Below the pieces are notes generated by a model, which ran no database searches, was not told where the DNA came from, and saw only the letters and a list, made by a program, of their open reading frames with translations. Below are positions 9,853-49,046 of a DNA stretch of 54,983 nt, piece by piece. Position 1 is the first letter of the stretch, and every line of letters starts with the position of its first letter. The translations under genes and the position numbers were made by a program. Source of the stretch: a virus; IMG/VR virus record IMGVR_UViG_3300027708_000089, positions 1-54,983 of that record; one strand, 5' to 3'.

Positions 9853-9885
9853 TTCGAGTCCTTACTTGTAAAAGATGATGAATTA

Positions 9886-11307: not shown

Positions 11308-11336
11308 AGTATAGCACTGAAACAGGGCTTTGTCAA
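11308..11336 (-). promoter_or_regulatory. Sigma-70 promoter of the lysin gene
   Basis: Minus strand TTGACA (11331-11336), 17-nt spacer, TATACT (11308-11313). It lies just downstream of the carbamoyltransferase stop. Confidence 0.88.
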
Positions 11337-11352
11337 GCCATTTTGGTAAAAA

Positions 11353-12834: not shown

Positions 12835-12837
12835 ATT

Positions 12838-32164: not shown

Positions 32165-32264
<100 letters not shown>

Positions 32265-33326: not shown

Positions 33327-33355
33327 TTGACAAAGTGGCAAAAGTGTTGTATAAT
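33327..33355 (+). promoter_or_regulatory. Array promoter 1
   Basis: TTGACA, 17-nt spacer with GTGGCAAAAGTG, TATAAT. Drives the 54-aa gene. Confidence 0.9.
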
Positions 33356-33379
33356 ACAGTTACACTAAAAGGAGCTTAG

Positions 33380-33544
33380 ATGAAGACATTTTACTACACA
33401 CAAACAGTTGTTTATAGCTTGCAAATAGAGGCAGAGTCCGCTGAGGCAGCAGACGCTATTGCCTACGCTACAGAGGTAGATAGTGTGGGCGTAGTAGGAC
33501 AGCATAGCGAGTGGCAAGAGGACGGCTACGCAGAGACCGAGTAA
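33380..33544 (+). CDS. 54-aa acidic micro-protein
   Basis: Below many length cut-offs. MKTFYYTQTVVYSLQIEAESA followed by an Ala/Glu-rich helix and HSEWQEDGYAETE. AAAGGAGC Shine-Dalgarno and an immediately upstream sigma-70 promoter support it. Similar in style to phage proteins with a beta-strand then DAIAYA-type helix. Function unknown. Confidence 0.7.
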   Translation: MKTFYYTQTVVYSLQIEAESAEAADAIAYATEVDSVGVVGQHSEWQEDGYAETE

Positions 33545-33560
33545 AGTGTAGGGTCTTTGG

Positions 33561-33589
33561 TTGACACACTGGTAAAACCATGTTATAAT
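33561..33589 (+). promoter_or_regulatory. Array promoter 2 (TGGTAAAACCA dyad)
   Basis: TTGACA, spacer containing TGGTAAAACCA, TATAAT. The next gene's ATG falls 6 nt after the -10, at the expected start of transcription. Confidence 0.92.
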
Positions 33590-33594
33590 ACACT

Positions 33595-33933
33595 ATGACA
33601 CAGACAAACACACTACGCAAAAAGAGAGCGGACCGCAACCACATCATCTATGAGCTTGTGGTCAATGGGCTCAACTACATAGGTGTCACAGCCAAGACTG
33701 AAAGCACTGTGAACAAGAGTGTATTGGCTCGAGCTGCCAAGCACTTCTACCGTGCCAAGACTGAAGACAAGAACTGGCTTCTGTGTGCTGAGTTGCGTAA
33801 GCTGAACGACAAGAGCGAGATAGAGGTCTACGTACACGAGGTGATCCGTGGCAAGGCGGCTGCTCATCGTCGTGAGGTTGAGATCCGTAGAATGGTTAAG
33901 CCTGTTCTGAATACTGATGTCCGTGGAGATTGA
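33595..33933 (+). CDS. GIY-YIG-like small protein, apparently leaderless
   Basis: 112 aa, basic. HIIYELVVNGLNYIGVTAKTES at about residues 16-37 matches the GIY-YIG core pattern; ELRKLNDKSEIEVYVHEVIRG and RREVEIRRMVKPVLNTD follow, with Glu in the catalytic position. No separate DNA-binding domain. No Shine-Dalgarno and no later in-frame start near the N-terminus, so translation from a leaderless mRNA is implied. Confidence 0.75.
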   Translation: MTQTNTLRKKRADRNHIIYELVVNGLNYIGVTAKTESTVNKSVLARAAKHFYRAKTEDKNWLLCAELRKLNDKSEIEVYVHEVIRGKAAAHRREVEIRRMVKPVLNTDVRGD

Positions 33934-33944
33934 ACGGGCTTTGG

Positions 33945-33973
33945 TTGACAAACTGGTAAAACCATGTTATAAT
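33945..33973 (+). promoter_or_regulatory. Array promoter 3 (TGGTAAAACCA dyad)
   Basis: TTGACA, 17-nt spacer with TGGTAAAACCA, TATAAT. Confidence 0.92.
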
Positions 33974-34001
33974 ACTCACATACACTAACAAGGAGCGTAC
34001 T

Positions 34002-34496
34002 ATGAATGCATCACTGAACATCAACACTTATACCGCAGACGGGTTTGTCAAGGTATGTGATGTGGCTAGGGATACTGAGAACCGTTGGTTCTACGAGAAC
34101 ATCAACGAGGCCATGATGTTCAGTGATCACCGCAGTTGGGTCTACTTCGTTGTAGTAGATGACGAGATTGTCAAAGTGGGCGAGACTGGCAATCCGTTGG
34201 GTGTACGCATGAAGACCAGCAATCAGCCCAAGTATGGTACTGAAGGACGCTTTGGACGCTATCGTGCAGGAGATGCCACTGACTGGTTCATTCGCGATGA
34301 ACTGCGGAGAGAAGTGCGCGAAGGTCGTGTCACACTGTGGGCCCGGCGTTGCGAAATGGTGTCGTTGACTGTGTCTGTAGCTGGGTGCGAAGACTCCACA
34401 ATGACCAGCTTCCACAAAGATCTTGAGATGAGGTACCTGGACTATATCTTTAGCCAAACGGGCAATCTGCCTCGTTTGAACAAAGCCCGCAAATAA
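34002..34496 (+). CDS. GIY-YIG/T5orf172-like protein
   Basis: 164 aa. WVYFVVVDDEIVKVGETGNPLGVRM at about residues 47-71 has the shape of a T5orf172/GIY-YIG nuclease core (Y-F ... VKVGET), then GRYRAGDATDWFIRDELRREV and FHKDLEMRYLDYIF with a possible catalytic Glu. AAGGAGC Shine-Dalgarno. Could be an endonuclease acting on host DNA or a degenerate relative. Confidence 0.65.
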   Translation: MNASLNINTYTADGFVKVCDVARDTENRWFYENINEAMMFSDHRSWVYFVVVDDEIVKVGETGNPLGVRMKTSNQPKYGTEGRFGRYRAGDATDWFIRDELRREVREGRVTLWARRCEMVSLTVSVAGCEDSTMTSFHKDLEMRYLDYIFSQTGNLPRLNKARK

Positions 34497-34504
34497 CCCA
34501 TCGG

Positions 34505-34534
34505 TTGACAAGGTCATTGAATTCGTGTTATAAT
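34505..34534 (+). promoter_or_regulatory. Array promoter 4 (18-nt spacer)
   Basis: TTGACA, 18-nt spacer, TATAAT. No TGGTAAAACC core. Confidence 0.85.
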
Positions 34535-34573
34535 ACACACATGAACAAAACACAAACACAAAAAGGAACAACC

Positions 34574-34852
34574 ATGCAACAATACACCCTGTACGTCTAC
34601 AAGCAGGATCGCCGTTGCCGGTCAGGCGAGCGGCTGGTTCATACCAGTGTATGGCGTGACCATACGTCACAGCGCTCGGAGCGAGAGATGCGAGAGATCG
34701 CACTCGATGCCTACTCAGGACCTGTTGCAAGGTTCGAGTTCGTGCCCACCATCAAGCGGGTACGCAACCTGATGAGCGGGGAGATGGTGGAGATCCCACA
34801 TGATACACCACGTGCATGTGATCCATCAAGTGAATTGTTTTGGTCAATGTGA
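34574..34852 (+). CDS. Hypothetical basic/acidic small protein
   Basis: 92 aa from the ATG at 34574, preceded by AAAGGAAC. An in-frame ATG at 34541, exactly at the expected transcript start, would add 11 residues (MNKTQTQKGTT). The body has YTLYVYKQDRRCRSGERLVH and ends DPSSELFWSM. No family recognised. Confidence 0.65.
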   Translation: MQQYTLYVYKQDRRCRSGERLVHTSVWRDHTSQRSEREMREIALDAYSGPVARFEFVPTIKRVRNLMSGEMVEIPHDTPRACDPSSELFWSM

Positions 34853-34854
34853 GG

Positions 34855-34883
34855 TTGACAACATGGTAAAACCATGTTATAAT
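34855..34883 (+). promoter_or_regulatory. Array promoter 5 (perfect 8-bp dyad)
   Basis: TTGACA, 17-nt spacer, TATAAT. AACATGGT-AAA-ACCATGTT is an exact inverted repeat filling the spacer and touching both hexamers. Confidence 0.93.
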
Positions 34884-34908
34884 TGTTCTACACTAACTAG
34901 GAGCTGAT

Positions 34909-35181
34909 ATGAGTATTCAAACAGTCAACGCAGAGATCCTCGCAGGCAACTTCACTAACGATCAACTGACTTCGATCATCGATGCAGTCAAGTTCGCCCG
35001 AGCACGGCTTACAGATCAGAACAAGCGAAACCTGCGCATAGGCGGAACTGTCAAGTTCACATCGTCAAAGTCAGGATTGATCCATATGGGTTCTGTGGAT
35101 AAGATCGCTATCAAATTCGTCACAGTGCGCACAGGAAGTGGTCTGTGGAAAGTGCCTGCTAACATGCTGGAAGTCGTATAA
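34909..35181 (+). CDS. Conserved small phage protein with SH3/KOW-like C-terminus
   Basis: 90 aa. Helical N-terminus (NAEILAGNFTNDQLTSIIDAVKFARARL) followed by a small beta-barrel-like stretch, IGGTVKFTSSKSGLIHMGSV and KFVTVRTGSGLWKVPANML, reminiscent of SH3/KOW modules. Similar ORFs occur in cyanophage-type genomes as I recall. TAGGAGC Shine-Dalgarno. Confidence 0.7.
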   Translation: MSIQTVNAEILAGNFTNDQLTSIIDAVKFARARLTDQNKRNLRIGGTVKFTSSKSGLIHMGSVDKIAIKFVTVRTGSGLWKVPANMLEVV

Positions 35182-35205
35182 CCCAGGGCCCGCAAGGGTC
35201 TTTGG

Positions 35206-35234
35206 TTGACAGGTTGGTAAAACCATGTTATAAT
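35206..35234 (+). promoter_or_regulatory. Array promoter 6 (TGGTAAAACCA dyad)
   Basis: TTGACA, 17-nt spacer with TTGGTAAAACCATGT, TATAAT. Confidence 0.92.
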
Positions 35235-35261
35235 TGTTCTATACACACTAAGGAGCACACT

Positions 35262-35441
35262 ATGAATCCAATTCCATTCTCCGGCATGTTTGCCACTAAG
35301 ACGCTTGCAGAGTTGCAAGAGTACATTGAGATGATGACGGGCAAAGAAAAGGCACAGGCCTATCTCATCATGCAGATGACAATGAATGCTTGCCACGCAC
35401 TGGTGGAAGACGAATTTGTTGACACAATGAGCCGCCCTTAA
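35262..35441 (+). CDS. 59-aa hypothetical protein
   Basis: Starts MNPIPFSGMFATKTLAELQE and continues as a Met-rich helix (YLIMQMTMNACHALVEDEF). AAGGAGC Shine-Dalgarno. Heads a polycistronic unit with the next three ORFs, since no promoter intervenes. Confidence 0.65.
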   Translation: MNPIPFSGMFATKTLAELQEYIEMMTGKEKAQAYLIMQMTMNACHALVEDEFVDTMSRP

Positions 35442-35466
35442 TATTAATACGCAACAAGGAGCTGAT

Positions 35467-35613
35467 ATGAAAGCATGGGATGTTATACGCAACGGTCGAG
35501 TCATTGACACTGTATTCTATGACGTAGACTGTGAGCTGTGGTACGTGCGCAAGGGCCTGATCGAACATGACGGCTACCCTTCGGACATCATTGTTAAACC
35601 CGCAACACGATAA
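35467..35613 (+). CDS. 48-aa hypothetical protein
   Basis: MKAWDVIRNGRVIDTVFYD, then CELWYVRKGLIEHDGYP and IIVKPATR. AAGGAGC Shine-Dalgarno 6 nt before the ATG. The pattern of two beta strands around a short helix resembles small phage proteins that begin WDV..NG..IDTVFF. Function unknown. Confidence 0.65.
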   Translation: MKAWDVIRNGRVIDTVFYDVDCELWYVRKGLIEHDGYPSDIIVKPATR

Positions 35614-35622
35614 GGAACTAGT

Positions 35623-36003
35623 ATGACACGCTATTACGATGAGATCGCCAGCTTTGAACGCGATGGTTTCTTTATTATTGTAGACAAGACCTATGAAGAC
35701 CTCAGTCCACATGACTGTTTCGACGACTCGATCACTGATATCAAACAACTCTGTGAAGACATCAATGATTGCAAACTCGATTGGTTCATGCTACGTGTAC
35801 GGGTGCTGGTCGACGGACACGAGATGGGCAGTTCCTACCTCGGCGGATGCCTATACGAGAATGCCAAAGACGTGCTTACTGACGGGACTGCCGAGGACCT
35901 CATCAGTGAAGCTTTGATCGAAGCCAAACGTGATGTCTATCGCATGTACAAGCGGTTCCAAGAGTTGAGCTTTAATATTGATCGTGAAGGCATTGATGCG
36001 TAA
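35623..36003 (+). CDS. Acidic hypothetical protein
   Basis: 126 aa, rich in Asp/Glu; YLGGCLYENAKDVLTDGTAEDLI lies in the C-terminal half after a VRVLVDGHEMGSS strand pair. AAGGAAC Shine-Dalgarno. The next start (35996) lies inside its last codons. Confidence 0.65.
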   Translation: MTRYYDEIASFERDGFFIIVDKTYEDLSPHDCFDDSITDIKQLCEDINDCKLDWFMLRVRVLVDGHEMGSSYLGGCLYENAKDVLTDGTAEDLISEALIEAKRDVYRMYKRFQELSFNIDREGIDA

Positions 36004-36226
36004 TATTAACGAAGTACTACAGTGGGCAGGCACCGTTTGTTTCATGGTCATGTATGTGACCATGAGTTTCTTCAAAGAACTGCATACCCTGCAATTAATT
36101 GCCGGATGCATGGGCGGTGCCCTGTTTCTCGTATGGTCATTGCGTGTGGCTAATAGACAACAGATGATCGTTAACGTTGTGGGAGTAGCCATAACGCTTC
36201 TAGGGTTATACAACGAACTAGGTTGA
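35996..36226 (+). CDS. Two-TM membrane protein
   Basis: 76 aa from the ATG at 35996 overlapping the previous stop. Hydrophobic segments lie at about residues 10-25 and 29-46, with a third weak one near the C-terminus (VVGVAITLLGLY). May act at the host inner membrane. Confidence 0.65.
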   Translation: MRNINEVLQWAGTVCFMVMYVTMSFFKELHTLQLIAGCMGGALFLVWSLRVANRQQMIVNVVGVAITLLGLYNELG

Positions 36227-36251
36227 CATCTTGGTAAAACCACTGTATAAT
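36223..36251 (+). promoter_or_regulatory. Array promoter 7 (TGGTAAAACCA dyad)
   Basis: TTGACA overlaps the stop of the preceding gene; 17-nt spacer with TTGGTAAAACCACTG; TATAAT. Confidence 0.92.
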
Positions 36252-36283
36252 TAAGACTTAGACACAGCAACTAAGGAGCAGAG

Positions 36284-36484
36284 ATGTTTACTACACAGGC
36301 CCAACAGGAGTTCAAGCAGTCACTGCAAGCATTCGCCGCCGTCAAAGAAGCAGAGTATTCCTACGCATACACTGCTGGCTACTATGAGAGCATGGTCGTT
36401 GAGATGTTTGGTCTGCTGACAAAGAAGCAACAGAAATTATTTGCACAGCAGATACAAAAAGAGCTTGACAAGGTAGCGGTTTGA
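36284..36484 (+). CDS. 66-aa helical hypothetical protein
   Basis: Gln/Ala/Tyr-rich helices (QAQQEFKQSLQAFAAVKEAE, GLLTKKQQKLFAQQIQKEL). AAGGAGC Shine-Dalgarno. Its last codons contain the next promoter. Confidence 0.65.
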   Translation: MFTTQAQQEFKQSLQAFAAVKEAEYSYAYTAGYYESMVVEMFGLLTKKQQKLFAQQIQKELDKVAV

Positions 36485-36493
36485 TTGTATAAT
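36465..36493 (+). promoter_or_regulatory. Array promoter 8
   Basis: TTGACA inside the preceding gene, 17-nt spacer, TATAAT. ACAA/TTGT flank the spacer. Confidence 0.9.
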
Positions 36494-36521
36494 ACATACT
36501 TACACACACTAAGGAGCAGAG

Positions 36522-36788
36522 ATGAAAGCATTGCAAGCATACGTGGATCAGAAGAACAAGTGGAACGCGATCTTCAACGGGAAGCAGTATGAGATCGTGA
36601 GCAAGTTTGGTCGCCTGGAAGTGGCTGGTATGTTGGACGCAGACTTGAGTCCAGAGAACTTGACCTGCGATGGCGAACTGCCCCGTGCAGAGGTTGCTCG
36701 TCGCTACAAGACATTGACCAAAGCGGCACAGGAGTTGGTGCAGTTGGACCCCAGCGTTAAGATCTACGAATTCTACACAGGAGAATAA
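36522..36788 (+). CDS. 88-aa hypothetical protein
   Basis: LQAYVDQKNKWNAIFNGKQY then GRLEVAGMLDADLSPENLTCDGE and a helical C-terminus. AAGGAGC Shine-Dalgarno. One nt before the next ATG. No family recognised. Confidence 0.65.
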   Translation: MKALQAYVDQKNKWNAIFNGKQYEIVSKFGRLEVAGMLDADLSPENLTCDGELPRAEVARRYKTLTKAAQELVQLDPSVKIYEFYTGE

Positions 36789-36789
36789 G

Positions 36790-37002
36790 ATGAAAGCCTA
36801 TGTGACCACTATTATCCGGCAAGAGCTGGAAGTGCCAGACAGTTGGGAGCGAGAAGATGTCTTGGACTTCCTGTCAGAGGTGCAATCATTCCGCACTGCC
36901 TTCCAGGGTGTGAGCAATGAAGATCAGACTGCCCGTATCGTTGATCTGGGTGTTGTGGAAGAAGAGATTACTGAACTTGGTGAGGAGAGCTTCGATGCCT
37001 AA
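36790..37002 (+). CDS. 70-aa acidic hypothetical protein
   Basis: KAYVTTIIRQELEVPDSWER, then DVLDFLSEVQSFRTAFQGVS; C-terminus very acidic (VVEEEITELGEESF). One of many acidic small proteins here, a composition common in phage anti-host factors. Overlaps the next start by 8 nt. Confidence 0.65.
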   Translation: MKAYVTTIIRQELEVPDSWEREDVLDFLSEVQSFRTAFQGVSNEDQTARIVDLGVVEEEITELGEESFDA

Positions 37003-37564
37003 TTGGTGCAACAACACAGTGACGCTGGAACACACAGATCCAGCAATGATCGAGCGTGCCAAGACTGCATTTGCCGCTGGTACATTCCTTAATGAGTTCA
37101 TTCCTTGCCCGCAGGCGTTGATTGACACTGTGAGCGGCTTTGGTCCTGAGCAAGAGAAGCTGGAAGCCCAGCAAGCAGCCAACCGTGAGCGGTATGGTTA
37201 TAGCACTTGGTATGAACACAATGTGTCCAAGTGGGGAACCAAATGGGACGTGGGCGGTGAGGATGGTAGTGTTCAGGACATTGAAGGCGGTGTGATCATT
37301 ACCTTTGACAGTGCCTGGTCGCCACCGATTGCAGCCTATGCACTGTTGCAAGAGCAAGGCTTCGAGATCCTGGCCATGTACTACGAGCCTGGTATGTGCT
37401 TTGCTGGTCGGTGGTACAACGGTGATGACGACTACTATGAGTATGGTGGTATGACAGCAGATGAGATTGAAGACACCCTGCCCCCAGAGCTGGACGAGGC
37501 GTTTGGTATCAGTCAAGCAGTCAGTGAGTGGGAACAAGAGCAGGCAGAAGAGAACGAAGAGTGA
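36995..37564 (+). CDS. YubB/Api92-like ferredoxin-fold protein (DUF1281 type)
   Basis: 189 aa. MPNWCNNTVTLEHTDPAM is the diagnostic N-terminus; NEFIPCPQALID, STWYEHNVSKWGTKWDV and FDSAWSPPIAAYALLQEQGF follow in the family order, then an acidic YNGDDDYYEYGG tail. Such proteins are common in phages and plasmids; function unknown. Third gene of its unit, overlapping the preceding stop. Confidence 0.9.
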   Translation: MPNWCNNTVTLEHTDPAMIERAKTAFAAGTFLNEFIPCPQALIDTVSGFGPEQEKLEAQQAANRERYGYSTWYEHNVSKWGTKWDVGGEDGSVQDIEGGVIITFDSAWSPPIAAYALLQEQGFEILAMYYEPGMCFAGRWYNGDDDYYEYGGMTADEIEDTLPPELDEAFGISQAVSEWEQEQAEENEE

Positions 37565-37608
37565 TGTTGTATTAAAGCCACAATCGACCCTACAGCGAAT
37601 AGGGTTGG

Positions 37609-37637
37609 TTGACAGATTGGTAAAAGTGCGTTATAAT
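37609..37637 (+). promoter_or_regulatory. Array promoter 9
   Basis: TTGACA, 17-nt spacer with TTGGTAAAAGTG, TATAAT; a variant with a broken right arm. Confidence 0.9.
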
Positions 37638-37667
37638 ACACTTACACTGAAACACTAAGGAGCTGAT

Positions 37668-37889
37668 ATGACACGTTACTACACAAACATGCTGTTGGAA
37701 ATGATCGACGATGGCCTGCTGGATCGCGACACTGTGATCAAAGCCTGCCTCGGTGCAATGAGCGAACAAGAGGTGCAGGACATGATGGAAGCTAACGAGT
37801 TCATCGAAGAGCAGTTCGAGGATGAAGATGAGGAAGACGGTCAGCCCGACGAAGCCCAAGAGTGGGAATCCTTTGACCCTGATTGCTAA
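37668..37889 (+). CDS. 73-aa strongly acidic protein
   Basis: RYYTNMLLEMIDDGLLDRDTV then EVQDMMEANEFIEEQFEDED and a C-terminal acidic tail. More than a third of residues are Asp/Glu: a DNA-mimic-like composition, though nothing more specific can be claimed. AAGGAGC Shine-Dalgarno. Confidence 0.7.
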   Translation: MTRYYTNMLLEMIDDGLLDRDTVIKACLGAMSEQEVQDMMEANEFIEEQFEDEDEEDGQPDEAQEWESFDPDC

Positions 37890-37900
37890 AGAGTTATTGG

Positions 37901-37929
37901 TTGACACTCACCCAAAAGAGTGTTATAAT
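37901..37929 (+). promoter_or_regulatory. Array promoter 10 (different dyad ACACTC/GAGTGT)
   Basis: TTGACA, 17-nt spacer, TATAAT. ACACTC at 37904 pairs with GAGTGT at 37918: same position as the usual dyad, unrelated sequence. Confidence 0.92.
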
Positions 37930-37954
37930 ACACTTACACTAAACAGGGGCTGAC

Positions 37955-38140
37955 ATGCTGACAAACGCAGAAAAGAGTGCTTTGCTTAATCAAGTTGTAG
38001 ACATGCTTAACGAGGCAGACCGCTTACAGCAACTAGCACTAGGGGACAGCGATGTAACGTGGGATAACCACATGCGTATCCAGGACATTGCAGACGACAT
38101 TGTCTGCGACATTACTTTGCTTGATGAGGGGACTGTATGA
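37955..38140 (+). CDS. 61-aa acidic helical protein
   Basis: LTNAEKSALLNQVVDMLNEA, then MRIQDIADDIVCDITLLDEG. CAGGGGC Shine-Dalgarno. Stop overlaps the next start (ATGA). Confidence 0.65.
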   Translation: MLTNAEKSALLNQVVDMLNEADRLQQLALGDSDVTWDNHMRIQDIADDIVCDITLLDEGTV

Positions 38141-38367
38141 TCACAGCAAAGAATGTTCGCTACATGATCGACATCCCTGTCGAACATCTCAAAGCTATTG
38201 CTCTCAACAACAAGATCAAGGGTCTTGTGTTTGACAAAGCAGAGTTCCTGGGCATGACTAACGGCAGTGAGTTCTGCTACAGAGTAGCAGACATTGAGGG
38301 AATTGAGAGCAAATTGTTCCTGCGTTATGACCCTACAGCGGATAGGGTTACTGCAAGTATCGGTTGA
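38137..38367 (+). CDS. 76-aa hypothetical protein
   Basis: AKNVRYMIDIPVEHLKAIAL, then FDKAEFLGMTNGSEFCYRVA and FLRYDPTADRVTASIG. Alternating strand/helix pattern. Coupled to the preceding gene by a 4-nt overlap. No family recognised. Confidence 0.65.
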   Translation: MITAKNVRYMIDIPVEHLKAIALNNKIKGLVFDKAEFLGMTNGSEFCYRVADIEGIESKLFLRYDPTADRVTASIG

Positions 38368-38392
38368 CAGTCTGGTAAAACCGTGTTATAAT
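38364..38392 (+). promoter_or_regulatory. Array promoter 11 (TGGTAAAACC core)
   Basis: TTGACA, 17-nt spacer GTCTGGTAAAACCGTGT, TATAAT; identical spacer to the next promoter. Confidence 0.92.
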
Positions 38393-38418
38393 ACACACAT
38401 AGCAACAAAGGAGCAACC

Positions 38419-38685
38419 ATGTTAGATGTTAGCAAAGTTTTCAAAGTCTACAACGGCAAGCTCAATCGCTGTTGCTGTGGCTGTTCAGGCAAGTACCATA
38501 TTGCCTCTGCACACAAAGAGTTTGCAGACCAGGACAGGGGATATGCCTACGACGATGGCGATGTCAATGACGTTACGGTGCGTAAGGTTGTGGGCAAGAT
38601 CCTAAGTGCCAACAACCCAATTGACGAGGGCGGGCACGTCTACGCAACTGTAGGCAAGAGAATGTATATTGCCTACTACAAATAA
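38419..38685 (+). CDS. Small Cys-rich conserved phage protein
   Basis: 88 aa. LDVSKVFKVYNGKLNRCCCGCSGKY contains a CCCGC cluster that resembles phage proteins with a (C)MCGC-GKY motif; the rest is strand-rich and ends KRMYIAYYK. Likely metal-binding; role unknown. AAGGAGC Shine-Dalgarno. Confidence 0.72.
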   Translation: MLDVSKVFKVYNGKLNRCCCGCSGKYHIASAHKEFADQDRGYAYDDGDVNDVTVRKVVGKILSANNPIDEGGHVYATVGKRMYIAYYK

Positions 38686-38688
38686 TGG

Positions 38689-38717
38689 TTGACAGTCTGG
38701 TAAAACCGTGTTATAAT
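38689..38717 (+). promoter_or_regulatory. Array promoter 12 (TGGTAAAACC core)
   Basis: TTGACA, same 17-nt spacer as promoter 11, TATAAT. Confidence 0.92.
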
Positions 38718-38751
38718 TAACACATAGACAGCAACACACTAGGAGCACTAA

Positions 38752-39222
38752 ATGGGAACACGAAGCACTATCGCATTGGAATTCGCAGACGGCACAGTCC
38801 AGCAAGTATATTGCCACTGGGACGGCTACTTGGAAAACAACGGCAAGATCCTGTTGGAACACTACAGCGATCCGTTCAAACTGCGCGACTTGATTGACTT
38901 GGGCGACATCAGCTCGCTGGGCAAAGAAGTTGGCAGCAAGCACCCTTTCAGCCCACACAGTAGCCCAGAAGATGAAGCCGCTTTCCACGAAGCAGTTGAT
39001 TTGGCAGGTGCAACTACATTCTACGGACGCGATCGCGGCGAGGCAGGCATTACTGCCAAGAAGTTCGTTAGCTTCTCAAGCTATATGGCTAACCACCAAT
39101 ATGAGGAATACGAATACATCTTGCGCAACATAGACGGCAAGGCTGTTTGGTTTGTAGCGGACCACAGCGACCGTTATGTGCCGTTGGTCGAAGCATTTAA
39201 AAACATCAAGGAAGAAGCATAA
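38752..39222 (+). CDS. Conserved phage protein (MGTRSTIALE family)
   Basis: 156 aa. MGTRSTIALEFADGTVQQVY, then CHWDGYLENNGKILLEHY, matches a widespread phage/environmental family of unknown function with the MGTRS opening and a YCHWDGYP-like motif. TTFYGRDRGE and KAVWFVADHSDRYVPL lie toward the end. Stop overlaps the next start (TAATG). Confidence 0.82.
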   Translation: MGTRSTIALEFADGTVQQVYCHWDGYLENNGKILLEHYSDPFKLRDLIDLGDISSLGKEVGSKHPFSPHSSPEDEAAFHEAVDLAGATTFYGRDRGEAGITAKKFVSFSSYMANHQYEEYEYILRNIDGKAVWFVADHSDRYVPLVEAFKNIKEEA

Positions 39223-39413
39223 TGAGCACACTTAAAGATCTAGCATACGATATCGAGCAACTGTATATCGACGGCTTCAACTCGCGAGCTATTGCAAACG
39301 AATTGAACTGCCCGATTGAGATTGTCCTGGGTGCCTTGGAGGCGATGAATGTGGCAGATGTTGCGGAAACGCCACAGGAGGATTACAATCCGTTCGAAAC
39401 AATCAACTCCTAA
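39222..39413 (+). CDS. 63-aa HTH-like acidic protein
   Basis: LKDLAYDIEQLYIDGFNSRAIANELNCPIEIVLGALEAM has the helix-turn-helix spacing of small RNA-polymerase or DNA-binding domains (G-F-x-x-x-x-I-A-x-x-L). The tail is acidic. Could bind DNA or host RNA polymerase (inference). Confidence 0.65.
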   Translation: MSTLKDLAYDIEQLYIDGFNSRAIANELNCPIEIVLGALEAMNVADVAETPQEDYNPFETINS

Positions 39414-39426
39414 AGCCAGATAATGG

Positions 39427-39455
39427 TTGACAACGAACCAAAATCGTTGTATAAT
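39427..39455 (+). promoter_or_regulatory. Array promoter 13 (different dyad ACAACGA/TCGTTGT)
   Basis: TTGACA, 17-nt spacer, TATAAT. The 7-bp arms at 39430 and 39444 differ entirely from TGGTAAAACCA. Confidence 0.92.
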
Positions 39456-39513
39456 TAAGGTATGGACAGCGCGGTGCTGCTCATATTACACACAGACTCA
39501 CAAAGGAAATTTT

Positions 39514-39921
39514 ATGTCTAAATCTTTTACCCATGCAGGCGTTTCTAAACAAGACGGTCAGTTCAAAGTTCGCTTCGCCAATGACGCGATGCGTACCAAG
39601 GTTCTGATCAAGAACGGTCACACTGATATTGATATCATCGAACTCAAGCACGCCATGACCAAAGAGGATGCTGTTGCATTCCTTATGGAGATCGACTTTG
39701 CTACCAAAGACGGCGTGACCAATGCCTTGGTGCAAGAAGCACTGGCCAATGAGTTGGACAAGCGTTCAGAAGTTGCCAAGGTCACTGCTACTAAAGCAGC
39801 TCCTAAGGCCAAGGCTCCTAAGGCTGCTAAGCCTACACTGGACTCCATCCGTGCCAAGGCACCGAAGACCACTGTGACCAAAGCTGAAGTCGACGCCCAG
39901 TTGGAAGACGCTCCTTACTGA
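39514..39921 (+). CDS. Conserved phage protein with histone-like Ala/Lys/Pro tail
   Basis: 135 aa from the ATG at 39514 (AAAGGAAAT before it). Folded part: FTHAGVSKQDGQFKVRFAND, LIKNGHTDIDIIELKHAMTKE and a helical pair. Residues about 88-120 are a basic low-complexity linker (KAAPKAKAPKAAKP) like H1/AlgP tails, so nucleic-acid contact is possible. Longer leader (about 50 nt) than other array genes. Confidence 0.7.
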   Translation: MSKSFTHAGVSKQDGQFKVRFANDAMRTKVLIKNGHTDIDIIELKHAMTKEDAVAFLMEIDFATKDGVTNALVQEALANELDKRSEVAKVTATKAAPKAKAPKAAKPTLDSIRAKAPKTTVTKAEVDAQLEDAPY

Positions 39922-40003
39922 TCAACCCCTGCAGTGTGCGTAGAGGCAGTGCCAATAAGTCCTCTTCGATAACCCACAACGGGGTATTTGGACAAATGAG
40001 TTC

Positions 40004-40032
40004 TTGATCTAGATTACAGATGTGTGTATACT
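40004..40032 (+). promoter_or_regulatory. Promoter of the winged-helix gene, not of array type
   Basis: TTGATC, 17-nt spacer, TATACT; no ACA...TGT dyad. Confidence 0.7.
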
Positions 40033-40072
40033 TGTAGATAACTGCACAGCAGTATCTAATAAGGAAAACAAA

Positions 40073-40342
40073 ATGAAACATTTCAATCCAGAAACCAAGA
40101 CATTTAAACTCTTCAACGCCCTGTATCAAGGTGAGAAGATGACAGCAAGCGCCGCTTCTAAGCGTTTCGGTATCAAGAACATCAGTGCCGAAGTAAGCCG
40201 CATCCGTCAGAACGGTTATGCAGTCTACGCCAACACTCGTGTCGCTGGCAATCACGTCCAGGTCACTGAGTACGCAATCGGCCGTCCAAGCCGCAAATTG
40301 ATTGCAGCCGGCTACAAAGCCATGCAATTGGGTCTAGTCTAA
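40073..40342 (+). CDS. Winged-helix/HTH DNA-binding protein
   Basis: 89 aa. TKTFKLFNALYQGEKMTASAASKRFGIKNISAEVSRIRQ is a helix-turn-helix (recognition helix about residues 40-52), followed by a wing NGYAVYANTRV and HVQVTEYAIG. Its own promoter lacks the array operator. As the clearest repressor-like protein in the array it is a candidate regulator of it (inference only). AAGGAAA Shine-Dalgarno. Confidence 0.75.
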   Translation: MKHFNPETKTFKLFNALYQGEKMTASAASKRFGIKNISAEVSRIRQNGYAVYANTRVAGNHVQVTEYAIGRPSRKLIAAGYKAMQLGLV

Positions 40343-40384
40343 TAGATCGCTCCGAAGTCCGGGGGTAGTGTCCCGGCAACAATA

Positions 40385-40419
40385 GGACCCCTCCACGCTG
40401 TGAAGCTGTTGAGGGGTCC
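40385..40419 (+). terminator. Hairpin terminator after the winged-helix gene
   Basis: GGACCCCTC pairs with GAGGGGTCC (9 bp) around a 17-nt loop; only a weak T stretch follows. Confidence 0.6.
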
Positions 40420-40428
40420 GCCTTATCT

Positions 40429-40444
40429 GTTGTAAAAATACAAC
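40429..40444. repeat. Hairpin repeat GTTGTAAAAATACAAC, copy 1
   Basis: 6-bp stem GTTGTA/TACAAC; an identical copy occurs at 41462-41477. Both directly precede an array promoter. Confidence 0.7.
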
Positions 40445-40454
40445 AAACAAATGG

Positions 40455-40483
40455 TTGACAACCTGGTAAAACCGTGTTATAAT
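40455..40483 (+). promoter_or_regulatory. Array promoter 14 (TGGTAAAACC core)
   Basis: TTGACA, 17-nt spacer ACCTGGTAAAACCGTGT, TATAAT. Confidence 0.92.
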
Positions 40484-40509
40484 ACATACATCGCAACAAG
40501 GAGTGAAGA

Positions 40510-40698
40510 ATGAAAACAGAAATTGAACGCATCCAGGAACTCCTGCCCACAGACCTGTTCGAGGGTAGCAAGGACTGGCGTGAGGGTAGTCTAGCCGAGC
40601 GAGTTGAGTGGTTGCTGAGTATGTACGAATCATCCAATCAGGAAGTTGAGCGTTTGGAGGTTTTGGTTTATCAATTGACCGCCGATGAGGATGAATAA
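40510..40698 (+). CDS. 62-aa acidic coiled-coil-like protein
   Basis: KTEIERIQELLPTDLFEG, then LAERVEWLLSMYESSNQEVE and a heptad-like RLEVLVYQL. Acidic end. AAGGAGTG Shine-Dalgarno. Confidence 0.62.
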   Translation: MKTEIERIQELLPTDLFEGSKDWREGSLAERVEWLLSMYESSNQEVERLEVLVYQLTADEDE

Positions 40699-40707
40699 CC
40701 CTACTGG

Positions 40708-40736
40708 TTGACAGGTTGCCAATTTGGTGTTATAAT
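40708..40736 (+). promoter_or_regulatory. Array promoter 15
   Basis: TTGACA, 17-nt spacer with CCAATTTGG, TATAAT. Confidence 0.9.
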
Positions 40737-40762
40737 ACATACATCGCAACAAGGAGTGGAAC

Positions 40763-40984
40763 ATGGGATACAAAGTAATTGCTGGTAAGGACGAGATGGA
40801 CATGATGCGTGTCAAGTACGGCCCACGCAAGGGACTTGAAGGCCCGTTCAACTTCTCAGGTCGTGTTCTGTACTACGATCCTGTTGAAGGCGCCTACTAC
40901 GATCCAACCACTGACTTCTATGTGGAGCGTGATGAGATGGATATCATCAACAACCGCTTGATGGAGGTCTTGGCTCGTGCTTAG
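40763..40984 (+). CDS. 73-aa hypothetical protein
   Basis: GYKVIAGKDEMDMMRVKYGP, then VLYYDPVEGAYYDPTTDFYV with paired YYDP units, then a helix. AAGGAGTG Shine-Dalgarno. Overlaps the next gene by 8 nt. Confidence 0.65.
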   Translation: MGYKVIAGKDEMDMMRVKYGPRKGLEGPFNFSGRVLYYDPVEGAYYDPTTDFYVERDEMDIINNRLMEVLARA

Positions 40985-41162
40985 GATCCATCCAGAACTG
41001 AATCCTCTAGAGGTCATGCTGGTCGAAGAGGATATGGCCCGTAGAGGAGTCACAACCTACACAATGACCAAGGGCAAGGACTGCATCTGGGTCTATTATG
41101 GTTCTATGAACCTCTACTATATCTTCAAGGAAGGCAGGATCCATGACATCCAAATCGACTAA
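40977..41162 (+). CDS. 61-aa hypothetical protein (GTG start)
   Basis: GTG start at 40977 preceded by GGAGG about 11 nt upstream; an ATG at 41016 is the alternative. VMLVEEDMARRGVTTYTMTK then WVYYGSMNLYYIFKEGRIHD. Nested overlaps with both neighbours indicate translational coupling. Confidence 0.58.
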   Translation: MLRIHPELNPLEVMLVEEDMARRGVTTYTMTKGKDCIWVYYGSMNLYYIFKEGRIHDIQID

Positions 41163-41355
41163 TTACATCTACGTTGAGACCACTGTGTGGCAGGAACCAA
41201 CTCAGGCCAATCATGTCTACGTGTTCAGCGAGAAACCAAACACACGAACAGCCAAAGCCATCGGATATGTGAGAGCAGGCACCAAGGAGCTGTTCCGCTT
41301 CAAGAAGCCCATGACCTTGGATCTCAAGGGTCGGACCTTTGCGGCATTGACCTAA
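41143..41355 (+). CDS. 70-aa hypothetical protein
   Basis: YIYVETTVWQEPTQANHVYV, then AKAIGYVRAGTKELFRFKKP, strand-rich. Overlaps the previous gene by 20 nt. Its 3' end contains the tRNA-Arg promoter -35. Confidence 0.62.
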   Translation: MTSKSTNYIYVETTVWQEPTQANHVYVFSEKPNTRTAKAIGYVRAGTKELFRFKKPMTLDLKGRTFAALT

Positions 41356-41375
41356 CGGTTGATCCGTGCTATAAT
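41347..41375 (+). promoter_or_regulatory. Promoter of tRNA-Arg
   Basis: TTGACC, 17-nt spacer, TATAAT preceded by GATCCGTGC, as at the first tRNA. Confidence 0.8.
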
Positions 41376-41382
41376 TAAGTGA

Positions 41383-41457
41383 CTGGCGTTCGTTCAACGG
41401 ATAGGACATGATTCTTCTAAAGTCATTATAGAGGTTCGATTCCTCTACGCCGGACCA
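41383..41457 (+). tRNA. tRNA-Arg (anticodon UCU)
   Basis: 75 nt with encoded CCA. Acceptor CTGGCGT/ACGCCGG (one T-G pair), D stem GTTC/GGAC, anticodon stem TGATT/AGTCA with loop CTTCTAA (anticodon TCT), T arm AGAGG-TTCGATT-CCTCT. It reads AGA/AGG codons, a frequent phage-borne tRNA. Confidence 0.9.
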
Positions 41458-41461
41458 TCTT

Positions 41462-41477
41462 GTTGTAAAAATACAAC
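41462..41477. repeat. Hairpin repeat GTTGTAAAAATACAAC, copy 2
   Basis: Identical to 40429-40444; lies between the tRNA-Arg 3' end and the next promoter. Possibly a short terminator. Confidence 0.7.
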
Positions 41478-41488
41478 ACCAAAAGTGG

Positions 41489-41517
41489 TTGACAGTTTGG
41501 TAAAACCATGTTATAAT
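41489..41517 (+). promoter_or_regulatory. Array promoter 16 (TGGTAAAACCA dyad)
   Basis: TTGACA, 17-nt spacer GTTTGGTAAAACCATGT, TATAAT. Confidence 0.92.
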
Positions 41518-41551
41518 ACATACATAGACAGCAACACACTAGGAGCAACAA

Positions 41552-41869
41552 ATGGCTAAGATCTTAATCACTACACAGACTCAAGAGAACTACGGTGCCC
41601 ACGATTGGGACGGTATAGGCGAGTGCCCACAGTACTGGAAGTTCAAAGGCGGTAGTGACTACGTGATCAAGAAGTTCAAAGGTAGCCATGCTGATGCTAC
41701 CATGGCGGTCATGGCCCTCCGTAGCCAGATTGAGTGCGACAATGTAGGCTTCCGTGAGAACATCATCGACTTCCGCATTGTCAAAGACAACTACCTCACA
41801 GAGTTCGAAAAGAGCCAGTTGGAGTACGAGGGCAAGGTCACATACGGTCCTAAAGAGTTGGTTTGGTAA
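41552..41869 (+). CDS. Conserved phage hypothetical protein
   Basis: 105 aa. AKILITTQTQENYGAHDWDG then ECPQYWKFKGGSDYVIKKFK: a Q-E-N-Y-(G/A)-A-H motif near the N-terminus recurs in similar phage proteins as I recall. Basic middle, acidic end. TAGGAGC Shine-Dalgarno. Function unknown. Confidence 0.72.
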   Translation: MAKILITTQTQENYGAHDWDGIGECPQYWKFKGGSDYVIKKFKGSHADATMAVMALRSQIECDNVGFRENIIDFRIVKDNYLTEFEKSQLEYEGKVTYGPKELVW

Positions 41870-41881
41870 AGACCCTAGTGG

Positions 41882-41910
41882 TTGACAGGGTATCAAAATC
41901 CTGTTATAAT
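41882..41910 (+). promoter_or_regulatory. Array promoter 17 (ACAGG/CCTGT dyad)
   Basis: TTGACA, 17-nt spacer, TATAAT; ACAGG at 41885 pairs with CCTGT at 41900. Confidence 0.92.
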
Positions 41911-41936
41911 ACACTTATAGACACTAAGGAGCAAAG

Positions 41937-42167
41937 ATGATTAAAGAAGCAATCTACACTAGATTCTACGATGAACGACACGGTGGACCATACGATCGCG
42001 GTCAAGCCGACAGCTGGTACGGACGCGAATACAATCCCCACTACTTTGTCGGTGACAGCTATTCCAGCCCTCGCATTGAGTTGGCACAGATGACACCCGA
42101 TGAGATCGTGGCCTATACCGCAGGCTATACAGACAACGAAGCCAACGGCCTTCACAAGGAATATTGA
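41937..42167 (+). CDS. 76-aa hypothetical protein
   Basis: Tyr/Asp/Gly-rich: YTRFYDERHGGPYDRGQADS, WYGREYNPHYFVGDSY, then an acidic helix. First of a four-ORF unit (41937-42653). AAGGAGC Shine-Dalgarno. Confidence 0.65.
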   Translation: MIKEAIYTRFYDERHGGPYDRGQADSWYGREYNPHYFVGDSYSSPRIELAQMTPDEIVAYTAGYTDNEANGLHKEY

Positions 42168-42168
42168 T

Positions 42169-42264
42169 ATGACAGCACTGATCAACCTCGCATTGGTCCT
42201 GGGATTGCCCTTGTTGGCACTGGGATTGTCCATCCTCATCGCACCTTACTTTGGAGCTGAATAA
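42169..42264 (+). CDS. 31-aa single-TM micro-protein
   Basis: TALINLALVLGLPLLALGLS then ILIAPYFGAE: a single hydrophobic helix with almost no soluble part. Its ATG follows the previous stop by one base and its stop overlaps the next ATG (TAATG), which supports translation. Possibly a membrane-perturbing peptide. Confidence 0.6.
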   Translation: MTALINLALVLGLPLLALGLSILIAPYFGAE

Positions 42265-42470
42265 TGAACGAATACGATAAGAACAACCTCTTGTTCCTGA
42301 TGAACATGAGCAGCTCTGCACTAGAGGATTGGTTCCTGCAGGCATCAGACGATGACCGCAACTACGCAGAAGAACTCATGGCAGAAGCACACCTGATCGC
42401 CATCGACGACCGTGTGGCACGGATGCGTCAGTTCAAAGAAGCAGAACAAGTTCTCAGCAAATTCATCTAA
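42264..42470 (+). CDS. 68-aa acidic helical protein
   Basis: NEYDKNNLLFLMNMSSSALE then WFLQASDDDRNYAEELMAEA and MRQFKEAEQVLSKF. Similar short helical ORFs with D-x-W-x-x-Q-A-S-x-D-D are common in T4-like phages as I recall. Start overlaps the preceding stop. Confidence 0.65.
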   Translation: MNEYDKNNLLFLMNMSSSALEDWFLQASDDDRNYAEELMAEAHLIAIDDRVARMRQFKEAEQVLSKFI

Positions 42471-42479
42471 GGAAACACC

Positions 42480-42653
42480 ATGGCAGGCAAAGCAAAATCC
42501 ATCTACCTAACCGTACTGCCCAAAGGCAAGCATGTGAGTGTTCTCAAGAAGGTATTCTTCGAAGCCAAGAGCTACAACGAATATGTCAAGACTGAGGAGT
42601 TCAAGGCCCAATACCCTGCCGATCAGTTCGATATCGTCAAAGAAACCTATTAA
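42480..42653 (+). CDS. 57-aa basic hypothetical protein
   Basis: AGKAKSIYLTVLPKGKHVSV then KKVFFEAKSYNEYVKTEEFK. Lys-rich, unlike most array proteins. AAGGAAAC Shine-Dalgarno. Confidence 0.62.
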   Translation: MAGKAKSIYLTVLPKGKHVSVLKKVFFEAKSYNEYVKTEEFKAQYPADQFDIVKETY

Positions 42654-42662
42654 CCCTAGTGG

Positions 42663-42691
42663 TTGACAGGGTATCAGTTTGGTGTTATAAT
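42663..42691 (+). promoter_or_regulatory. Array promoter 18
   Basis: TTGACA, 17-nt spacer AGGGTATCAGTTTGGTGT region, TATAAT. The upstream flank CCCTAGTGG is shared with promoters 17 and 19. Confidence 0.9.
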
Positions 42692-42717
42692 ACATATATC
42701 GCAACAAGGAGCACTAC

Positions 42718-43104
42718 ATGGCTAAAACACTCAAAGACATCGACAGCAACCGATTAGGCGATTATTTGGAGGACTACTGCAACTCAGCACTGAACAAGCG
42801 TCTGCACAAGTTCATGGTGTTGGATGATCCAGCCAACATCGAACTGATCTTGGAACAGGCTGGTTTGACTGAAACCGAAGAAGTCACCAACGATGATATC
42901 TTGGTAGGTATTGCAGTGGCAGAAGCCACCCTGGTCCAAGTGAACAAGGTGCTCAAAGCACAGGGCATAGACTTCCAGTTCTGCCGCTTTGATGCAGTAG
43001 ACTACGATGCCTATATGCTGGTACATCGTAAGGAAAACCTCAAGGCCACAGCAGAACGAGTGCGGGGCACTCGACGCATGTACGGGCAATCAGCACCTTT
43101 CTAA
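42718..43104 (+). CDS. 128-aa hypothetical protein
   Basis: DYLEDYCNSALNKRLHKFMV, then a helical acidic centre, then ILVGIAVAEATLVQVNKVLK and a basic C-terminus (RKENLKATAERVRGTRRMYG). No family recognised. AAGGAGC Shine-Dalgarno. Confidence 0.65.
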   Translation: MAKTLKDIDSNRLGDYLEDYCNSALNKRLHKFMVLDDPANIELILEQAGLTETEEVTNDDILVGIAVAEATLVQVNKVLKAQGIDFQFCRFDAVDYDAYMLVHRKENLKATAERVRGTRRMYGQSAPF

Positions 43105-43116
43105 AGACCCTAGTGG

Positions 43117-43145
43117 TTGACAGGGCTTTGAAAAGACGTTATAAT
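43117..43145 (+). promoter_or_regulatory. Array promoter 19
   Basis: TTGACA, 17-nt spacer, TATAAT. Confidence 0.9.
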
Positions 43146-43171
43146 ACATACTTAAACAACAAAGGAACAAG

Positions 43172-43306
43172 ATGACTACACTAGCTAAACCAATCGCATC
43201 CAGCACCGGCGGCGTTATTACCTACACCAAGACCGGACTGATCCATACCGCAGGCAAGGCATACAGCGGCAAGATCGCCGCTCAAGAAGCCAAGGCAGGC
43301 AAGTAA
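43172..43306 (+). CDS. 44-aa basic micro-protein
   Basis: TTLAKPIASSTGGVITYTKT then GLIHTAGKAYSGKIAAQEAK. AAAGGAAC Shine-Dalgarno. Stop overlaps the next ATG (TAATG). Confidence 0.62.
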   Translation: MTTLAKPIASSTGGVITYTKTGLIHTAGKAYSGKIAAQEAKAGK

Positions 43307-43515
43307 TGGACAAGTTCATTACAGCCATTGGAGCCACGGTGGTGGTTGTTGGCGGCTTTGTCCTGATCAGCTTCGTAATGAGCTGGCCCGTGTTCATGCT
43401 GTGGAACGGCGCCCTTGTTGGTGCAGTAGACGGTGTGCATACTATCGAATGGACTACAGCCTGGGGAATTAGCCTGCTGTGCGGCCTGTTGTTTAAAAAC
43501 CACACCAGCAAATAA
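43306..43515 (+). CDS. Two-TM membrane protein
   Basis: 69 aa. Hydrophobic segments at about residues 5-32 (ATVVVVGGFVLISFVMSW) and 48-62 (WGISLLCGLLF), with a short polar loop. Coupled to the micro-protein upstream. Confidence 0.65.
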   Translation: MDKFITAIGATVVVVGGFVLISFVMSWPVFMLWNGALVGAVDGVHTIEWTTAWGISLLCGLLFKNHTSK

Positions 43516-43518
43516 CAG

Positions 43519-43547
43519 TTGACAAACTGGTAAAACCTTGTTATAAT
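43519..43547 (+). promoter_or_regulatory. Array promoter 20 (TGGTAAAACC core)
   Basis: TTGACA, 17-nt spacer AACTGGTAAAACCTTGT, TATAAT. An in-frame ATG lies at the expected transcript start, 43554. Confidence 0.92.
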
Positions 43548-43577
43548 ACATACATGTTAAACAAAAAGGAAACCGAA

Positions 43578-43925
43578 ATGACAGCACTAGCATTTAACCT
43601 GGAAGCCGTCCAAGACGCCTGCAACGAAGCCGCCATGGCTGCTCGTACAGCCGCTAAGGAAGCCCTTCAACGCTACGGCGATCGTGACGCTTGCGGCTTT
43701 GCTTGGGTCAACGTCTACGGTGTCCGTAGCAACTCAAAGTTGGGCAAGGCCCTGCAGGCAGCTGGCTTCCGCAAGGACTATACCGGCAGTCTCCAGCTGT
43801 GGAATCCCAGCAAGGCAGGTGTGCAGAGCATGGGCATCCTGGAAGCAGGCGCCTACGCCTACGCAGAGGTGCTCAAAGCCAAGCTGGGCTTGGAAAAGGT
43901 CTACGCTGGAAGCCGAATGGACTGA
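43578..43925 (+). CDS. 115-aa Ala-rich hypothetical protein
   Basis: Start chosen at 43578 for its AAAAAGGAAAC site; an in-frame leaderless start at 43554 would add MLNKKETE. Ala-rich helices (EAVQDACNEAAMAARTAAKE), then FAWVNVYGVRSNSKLGKALQ and AAGFRKDYTGSLQLWNPS. A conserved phage protein by style; function unknown. Confidence 0.7.
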   Translation: MTALAFNLEAVQDACNEAAMAARTAAKEALQRYGDRDACGFAWVNVYGVRSNSKLGKALQAAGFRKDYTGSLQLWNPSKAGVQSMGILEAGAYAYAEVLKAKLGLEKVYAGSRMD

Positions 43926-43938
43926 TAAGTAAGACTGA

Positions 43939-43964
43939 AAGAGCTTGACAACAGGCTCTTTTGG
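43939..43964 (+). terminator. Hairpin overlapping array promoter 21
   Basis: AAAGAGC pairs with GCTCTTT around a 10-nt loop that contains the -35 TTGACA; a T-run follows. It could terminate the previous transcript while carrying the next promoter. Confidence 0.5.
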
Positions 43965-43973
43965 TGTTATAAT
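43945..43973 (+). promoter_or_regulatory. Array promoter 21
   Basis: TTGACA, 17-nt spacer, TATAAT. Drives the AAA ATPase gene. Confidence 0.9.
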
Positions 43974-48485: not shown

Positions 48486-49046
48486 ATGATTGAACAAAAC
48501 TATAGAGGCTATCTACTAGCCGCTCATCCTAAAAGACCAGACCCGTATTCTCGTAGGGGCGTAATGCTGATATTAGATCATGACAGCACAGGTGCTATAG
48601 GCTTACAAATTAATAAACCATTTAGTAATGATGTCAGCTTTGATATTGTTATGCAGAACGTGGGATTACATACCGACCGTGATCAACCGCTTTACAATGG
48701 TGGTCCAGAAGCTACTAATCGTATACATGTCATACACAGTATGGATTGGTTCAGCCCCACGACTATTAAACTGAGCGACACCATTGGTGTTAGCAATGAT
48801 ATGAGTGTGCTGGCTGCTATCAGCGAAAATGCGGGTCCTGAGAACTTCCGTGTAGTAGCAGGTTATACCAAATGGTTGCCGGGACACCTGGAAGGCGAGA
48901 TTGCTGGAGAAGCGCCATGGAGTATCAATCACATATGGACTTTCATACCCCCAGATCCTGAGATCCTTTTTGGCTTAGACGACATCGACCAGTGGCATAA
49001 GATCATTGCCGAAAGTGGTCGTCTTCAGATAGCCAACTGGTTTTAA
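48486..49046 (+). CDS. YqgE/AlgH family protein (DUF179)
   Basis: 186 aa, the full family length. GYLLAAHPKRPDPYSRRGVM and LILDHDSTGAIGLQINKPF at the start, YNGGPEATNRIHVIHS in the middle, FRVVAGYTKWLPGHLEGEIA and PWSINHIWTFIPPDPEILF near the end all follow bacterial YqgE. The family function is unsettled (in bacteria it is encoded beside a RuvX resolvase and is linked to alginate regulation in Pseudomonas). Its 3' end overlaps the convergent helicase gene by 4 nt. Confidence 0.92.
   Translation: MIEQNYRGYLLAAHPKRPDPYSRRGVMLILDHDSTGAIGLQINKPFSNDVSFDIVMQNVGLHTDRDQPLYNGGPEATNRIHVIHSMDWFSPTTIKLSDTIGVSNDMSVLAAISENAGPENFRVVAGYTKWLPGHLEGEIAGEAPWSINHIWTFIPPDPEILFGLDDIDQWHKIIAESGRLQIANWF

Follow-up and report, generated by a model that had tools for sequence, protein, structure and literature searches.

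Bacteriophage T4 carries C(UUCG)G hairpins between its cistrons (Tuerk et al. 1988, cited in PMC3972237), and strong early promoters of the T4 type consist of UP, -35, TGn and -10 elements (PMC2988021). Here, both kinds of element are compared with a promoter array in the IMG/VR virus record IMGVR_UViG_3300027708_000089, the whole 54,983-base stretch of which is referred to as the window, and with the inverted repeats found in the spacers between the -35 and -10 hexamers of this array and of its relatives in other phages. The record probably covers only part of a large phage genome, because the closest cultured-phage match of its helicase (49043-50509) is in the jumbo phage PA5oct, with 53% identity. 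In the reading that we favor, with a probability of about 70%, such an element would be the promoter of the next transcription unit when read as DNA, and the 3′ hairpin of the previous message when read as RNA.

The array is located on the plus strand at 33327-43973, and contains 21 promoters with exact TTGACA and TATAAT hexamers, each ahead of one to a few small genes, which rarely have a match among known families. The spacer is 17 nt long in 20 promoters and 18 nt long in the promoter at 34505, in agreement with an earlier note on this DNA. A TG or TGT precedes the -10 in most of the 21 promoters, and the array promoters have the composition of sigma70 promoters with an extended -10 (TTGACA, 17-bp spacer, TGn, TATAAT). 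Many T4 early promoters also have near-consensus -35, TGn and -10 elements, but a spacer hairpin is not mentioned for them in the accessible part of PMC2988021. The exact TTGACA-N17/18-TATAAT arrangement was not present in T4, Atu_ph07, Phosso, XaC1 or Vibrio 2.275. The jumbo phages PA5oct, SCTP-2 and CBB resemble the window in their replicative helicase, which is 53% (PA5oct) to 39% (CBB) identical, and in having several exact promoters. Among the 46 listed exact promoters of these three phages, judged by eye, there was neither a tetraloop hairpin nor the sequence GGTAAAACC, which is the core of a spacer motif described below. Pectobacterium phage CBB (KU574722) has tandem exact promoters with its own repeated spacer GTTAGAGTACTT at 6000-13155 and 361923-369078, which provides an independent example of spacer conservation in a jumbo phage.

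The likeness of the spacer hairpins to those of T4 is that short tetraloop-capped hairpins are located between phage genes. The 0-50 kb region of T4 contains several TTCG hairpins of 7 bp or more, and three of these run directly into the MotA-box-like sequences TGCTTTA/AGCTTTA; on the minus strand of this region (AF158101) such adjacency was seen at reverse-complement offsets 11274, 13382 and 44609. In T4, however, the hairpin adjoins the upstream element of the next promoter, whereas the hairpin of the window phage shares the bases of the -35, the spacer and the -10. Intrinsic (Rho-independent) terminators are similar in that a GC-rich hairpin follows a stop codon, in their tetraloops and, for some of the layouts, in arms of the A-tract/U-tract kind (AAAGGGC...GCCCUUU), but spacer hairpins of the window type usually have no U-tract. 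No paper on hairpins inside phage promoter spacers, or on phage terminators overlapping promoters, was found in the open-access literature searched.

Compensated stems in promoter spacers

The earlier note had proposed that the array spacers are selected for dyad geometry, with compensated arms. Its observation is partly confirmed, in that it merged two separate features, a directional TGGTAAAACC motif and dyads with varied arms, and its interpretation is partly supported. The arms ACACTC/GAGTGT, ACAACGA/TCGTTGT and ACAGG/CCTGT, which it had singled out, were all recovered in place. The arms do not always occupy the same place, as had been thought: the center of TGGTAAAACCA, the inverted-repeat form of the motif, is at spacer position 9, while those of the other dyads are at 7.5 or 8.0. 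Three base pairs (ACA/TGT) are supplied free by the end of the -35 and the TGT of the extended -10, so short dyads carry little meaning.

To evaluate the frequency of dyads, spacers of relatives were compared with shuffles that keep the composition of each spacer column. The first contig set was picked by the TGGTAAAACC motif, and the tested spacers were the other ones on those contigs. All TTGACA-N17-TATAAT promoters were taken from 83 motif-bearing stretches and from their contigs, in pieces of up to 20 kb, and were joined by the matches listed in a second scan, in which there was no selection on the spacer. The collected set, a non-exhaustive sample, has at least 900 distinct 17-nt promoters from contigs that are all uncultured. 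Removal of motif spacers and near-duplicates (at least 6 differences) left 288 non-redundant spacers among the matches listed. In these spacers, perfect stems of at least 5 bp were found 49 times vs. 17.8 in the column shuffles, those of at least 6 bp 27 times vs. 3.6, those of at least 7 bp 15 times vs. 0.5, and those of at least 8 bp 8 times vs. 0.1. With the register fixed, there were 18 stems centered at 7.5 (5.1 expected), with 15 distinct 4-nt arms, and 20 centered at 8.0 (8.3 expected), with 18 distinct arms. A minimum free energy of -10 or lower was reached by 19 vs. 0.3. The excess in the window alone was modest, with a stem of at least 5 bp in 3 of 9 non-motif spacers (0.6-0.8 expected, p=0.013-0.03). 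The dyad excess is suggestive in the window and overwhelming in the relatives. Covariation of single column pairs gave a weak signal, since the registers differ, and the maximum-stem and fixed-register tests took its place.

The layout recurs in related phages, where the unusual arms differ and still pair. At the promoter of gene 44005, which encodes an AAA-type ATPase, about 12 of 29 distinct relatives have a spacer hairpin; examples of the arms are ACAGGGC/GCCCTGT, GACAGGGAG/CTCCCTGTT, TGACACGGAG/CTCCGTGTTA and AGCGCC/GGCGCT. Five of the 29, including the window, have a 10-14 bp hairpin enclosing the -35, which folds at -19 to -23 kcal/mol (z -4.9 to -8.0). In several of the hairpin-less promoters of this gene the upstream coding frame appears to run into the promoter. 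The arms at the promoter of gene 39514 are ACAACGA/TCGTTGT, ACAACCG/CGGTTGT, ACAGCGG/CCGTTGT and ACACC/GGTGT, of which the first three pairs flank an ACCAAAA-like loop. The varied dyads are thus real and compensated, since the arms differ and still pair at orthologous promoters. In another record, IMGVR_UViG_3300020045_006153 (353 kb), about 30 exact promoters form a dense array on the minus strand at 324185-347470, and many of its spacers have GCGA, GCAA or GAAA hairpins.

Sense-strand RNA signatures and position behind stop codons

When one extra pair was allowed in stems of at least 7 bp, this pair was G.U in seven cases and A.C in two (about 1.2 expected for each), G.A in two and T.C in one. 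The preference for G.U over A.C points to RNA, because duplex DNA cannot separate a G.T from an A.C interruption, while a single RNA strand can. The 19 four-nucleotide loops, read on the sense strand, include six GNRA (0.15 expected) and four UNCG loops (0.08 expected), compared with about 0.2 in all in the shuffles, and reading the same 19 loops on the antisense strand gave no GNRA or UNCG loop. A scan of the 300-bp context of 480 promoters found 50 sense tetraloop hairpins. They peak in the spacer (18), mostly with the loop at its exact center, and cluster again directly 5′ of the -35; the five antisense ones showed no peak. The base of the stem is supplied by the consensus promoter itself, because the TGACA of the -35 is complementary to the TGTTA formed by the extended -10 and the -10. 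Spacer stems often reach 10 bp, as UGACA pairs, with one G.U, with the UGUUA of the TGT and the TA of the -10.

The hairpins are also linked to the end of the upstream gene. Of the 56 hairpin promoters, 50 have the stop codon of a co-directional upstream gene at -4 to +20 relative to the -35, vs. 165 of 307 others (p=2e-7), and the upstream frame enters the promoter in 3 of 56 vs. 55 of 307 (p 0.017). Because transcription starts 3′ of the -10, the RNA made from the promoter itself would not contain the hairpin, while read-through RNA would. Hence, the stems with varied arms are better read as RNA hairpins of read-through transcripts, which overlap the promoter, than as protein sites.

In the window, the spacer and -35 hairpins fold with z values from -4.3 to -6.4. 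The hairpin of promoter 37901 (37902-37925), UGACACUC[8-nt loop]GAGUGUUA, folds at -9.6 kcal/mol (z -6.2); its stem is built with the TGACA of the -35 and the TGTTA on the -10 side, and the upstream stop is 11 nt 5′ of the -35. At promoter 39427 the hairpin ACAACGA[ACCAAAA]UCGUUGU (39430-39450) has a z of -4.3, and at promoter 41882 the hairpin UGACAGGGU[AUCAAA]AUCCUGUUA (41883-41906), which includes G.U pairs, folds at -10.3 kcal/mol (z -5.1). A dyad overlooked in the earlier note is the 14-bp stem across the -35 of promoter 43945 (43934-43965), with the core CUGAAAGAGCUUG[ACAA]CAGGCUCUUUUGG and a fold of -19.2 kcal/mol (z -6.4). Here the -35 is in the upper stem and loop, and the hairpin is terminator-like, with a U-run in its 3′ arm; this architecture recurs with other arms in four more phages. 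Other hairpins on the plus strand are located upstream of the -35. The hairpin AGGGCCC[GCAA]GGGUCUU (35185-35202), which was also folded, adjoins the -35 of promoter 35206 on its 5′ side and is preceded by a stop codon at 35181, ACCCUA[CAGCGAA]UAGGGU (37587-37605) is directly 5′ of the -35 of promoter 37609, and the strong hairpin GGACCCC...GGGGUCC (40385-40419) is upstream of promoter 40455. Outside the array, two more exact TTGACA-N17-TATAAT promoters are on the minus strand (9914-9886 and 8106-8078), and the one at 8106-8078 has an ACAGC/GCTGT dyad.

The directional TGGTAAAACC motif

As the earlier note had described, TGGTAAAACC is present in 10 of the 21 array spacers. It is usually at spacer positions 4-13. 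The first copy is at 33570-33579 on the plus strand and the others start at 33954, 34864, 35215, 36232, 38373, 38698, 40464, 41498 and 43528, so that the ten sites together cover 33570-43537. Most copies had been described as inverted repeats, but the full TGGTAAAACCA is present in only 6 of the 10 motif spacers, with A as the dyad-completing base in 6 of the 10, and the flanks do not covary, so that it is not a dyad under selection. In 105 spacers of relatives, covariation was absent from all four flanking Watson-Crick pairs (p 0.13 to 0.76), and the position after ACC does not covary with its partner (p=0.13). In the relatives, 105 of 127 copies of the core GGTAAAACC are at spacer position 5, and its orientation is forward in 127 vs. 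reverse in 7. Because the flanks are uncoupled and the orientation is strongly biased, TGGTAAAACC is not a selected palindrome; it is a directional motif common to many uncultured phages. In the case of a GntR/FadR-type operator, symmetry with both half-sites constrained was likewise not seen, given the uncoupled flanks and the 127:7 bias, and TGGTAAAACCA as a symmetric operator was rejected after the coupling of its flanks was tested and found absent. The palindrome AACATGGT[AAA]ACCATGTT in promoter 34855 (34860-34878, plus strand), correctly reported before as having 8-bp arms, is an exception where the flanks of TGGTAAAACC happen to complete it; its fold has a z of only -2.3 and there is no separate upstream hairpin.

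The exact promoter TTGACANNNTGGTAAAACCNTGTTATAAT was found in 83 IMG/VR stretches. It had no match in the GTDB species genomes of bacteria and archaea (84,980), and so does not resemble a type of promoter used by hosts. The motif could possibly serve for protein binding or as a polymerase contact. A reversed form, GGTTTTACC, is located nearer the -10 in some relatives, including ones with 18-nt spacers. A small winged-helix protein (PF14090, HTH_39), encoded inside the array at 40073-40342, is a candidate reader of the motif.

Proposed function and competing explanations

In the favored reading, about 29 bp would serve in DNA as a near-consensus sigma70 promoter with an extended -10, and upon read-through from the upstream unit the same bases would fold into a short and stable hairpin right after the stop codon of that unit. 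In this hairpin, the UGACA of the -35 would pair with the UGUUA from the extended -10 and the -10 to form the base, above which 3-5 compensated base pairs of variable sequence would lead to a GNRA, UNCG or A-rich loop. A second layout has a longer stem with the -35 in its loop, and in a third one the hairpin is just upstream of the -35. We infer that such RNA is made, and that the hairpin terminates or stabilizes transcripts. Either through weak intrinsic termination or as a 3′-exonuclease barrier, it could set and shield the 3′ end of the preceding message, which would insulate tandem small-gene units in a compact genome. Without a U-tract, the exonuclease barrier would still be workable, or the ends could be cleaved in the AU-rich leader. 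Within this reading, the odds for termination proper are about even. The more general proposal, that large environmental phages of a widespread clade use an element of about 25 bp combining a consensus sigma70 promoter with a tetraloop 3′-end or terminator hairpin, so that many early-array junctions would be terminator-promoter fusions, is tentative and somewhat short of even odds.

Several observations weigh against the dual-role reading. Most spacer hairpins run into UAUAAU or UUAUAAU with no U-tract, and their T-tail scores are 0.9-2.3, below the usual threshold of about 2.9, though that at 43945 reaches 3.6. Spacer hairpins are present in only a minority of the promoters, the sense fold is stabler than the antisense one in only 28 of 43 cases, and none of 11 divergent promoters has a hairpin, a number too small for a test. 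A further upstream hairpin is rarer beside a spacer hairpin (1 of 59 vs. 35 of 358, p 0.04), a weak effect that is not significant at two other cut-offs. With respect to intrinsic terminators, the stable GC-rich hairpin on the transcribed strand is there, as is its location 3′ of the stop codon of a co-directional gene (50/56), but a U-tract right after the stem is found only in the 43945 type. Because they have no U-tract, the spacer hairpins are not classed as intrinsic terminators. A simple terminator scan of the window was uninformative (10 found vs. 12.2 in shuffles).

The earlier note had suggested a shared repressor or activator, promoter-DNA extrusion or a recombination cassette system, all of which are less supported, as the stems bear RNA signatures on the sense strand only. 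If the spacer dyads were operators of dimeric repressors or activators, with TGGTAAAACCA as a GntR/FadR-like site (TNGTNNNACNA) and the other arms serving other regulators, the conservation of the sequence and position of TGGTAAAACC in many phages, its retention at some orthologous promoters, such as that of gene 33595, and the presence of the winged-helix protein (PF14090, 40073-40342) inside the array would be explained. This is nevertheless unlikely, because the non-motif arms have no common sequence, with 15 and 18 distinct arms per register, and because G.U bias and sense-only tetraloops are unexpected for sites in duplex DNA, while the motif itself has uncoupled flanks and one predominant orientation. 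No regulator was identified, and no GntR domain was found in the window proteins scanned, the window probably being a fragment.

Promoter control by a hairpin in DNA, through extrusion of a cruciform or of a single strand, as in the N4 virion-polymerase promoters or the single-strand promoters of conjugative plasmids, would agree with the location of the dyads within the promoter, where they use its conserved ends, and GNRA-like loops can be stable in DNA as well. We consider it improbable, since UNCG loops and the one-strand asymmetry of G.U over A.C suit RNA better, the long hairpins reach upstream of the promoter, and a DNA mechanism does not predict the link to the upstream stop codon; from the sigma70 hexamers we argue that these promoters would be used by the host polymerase rather than by an N4-type virion polymerase. 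The complementary ACA/TGT anchors could also lead to dyads as a mutational by-product, in which quasi-palindrome template switching, a process described in PMC7202029, makes the arms reverse complements of each other without selection. The registers 7.5 and 8.0 are indeed the anchored ones, but neither the G.U bias, the tetraloop preference nor the stop-codon link, all of which were observed, is predicted by this process, and hairpins that occupy the same junctions in a different register, or that have the -35 in their loop, need no anchors, so it is highly improbable. If the dual-role reading is right, phages reuse a compact two-in-one regulatory element, in which the consensus promoter is a half-built RNA hairpin that evolution has completed many times with different arms. 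It would be a concrete way to insulate tandem phage genes in almost no space and a ready-made part for synthetic transcription units, as well as a caution against taking every inverted repeat in a promoter spacer for an operator.

Next to the array, a divergent promoter on the minus strand, at 33290-33262, starts the opposite direction. An Rfam scan of 30001-54983 found two tRNAs and nothing else: tRNA (Met) at 32178-32255 and tRNA-Arg (TCT) at 41347-41457, the latter with its own promoter-like TTGACC-N17-TATAAT. Elsewhere in the window there are host-like genes for an iron-sulphur cluster assembly protein (PF01521, 8121-8498, minus strand), a carbamoyltransferase (PF02543/PF16861, 11353-12834, minus strand) and an AlgH-like DUF179 protein (PF02622, 48486-49046, plus strand).

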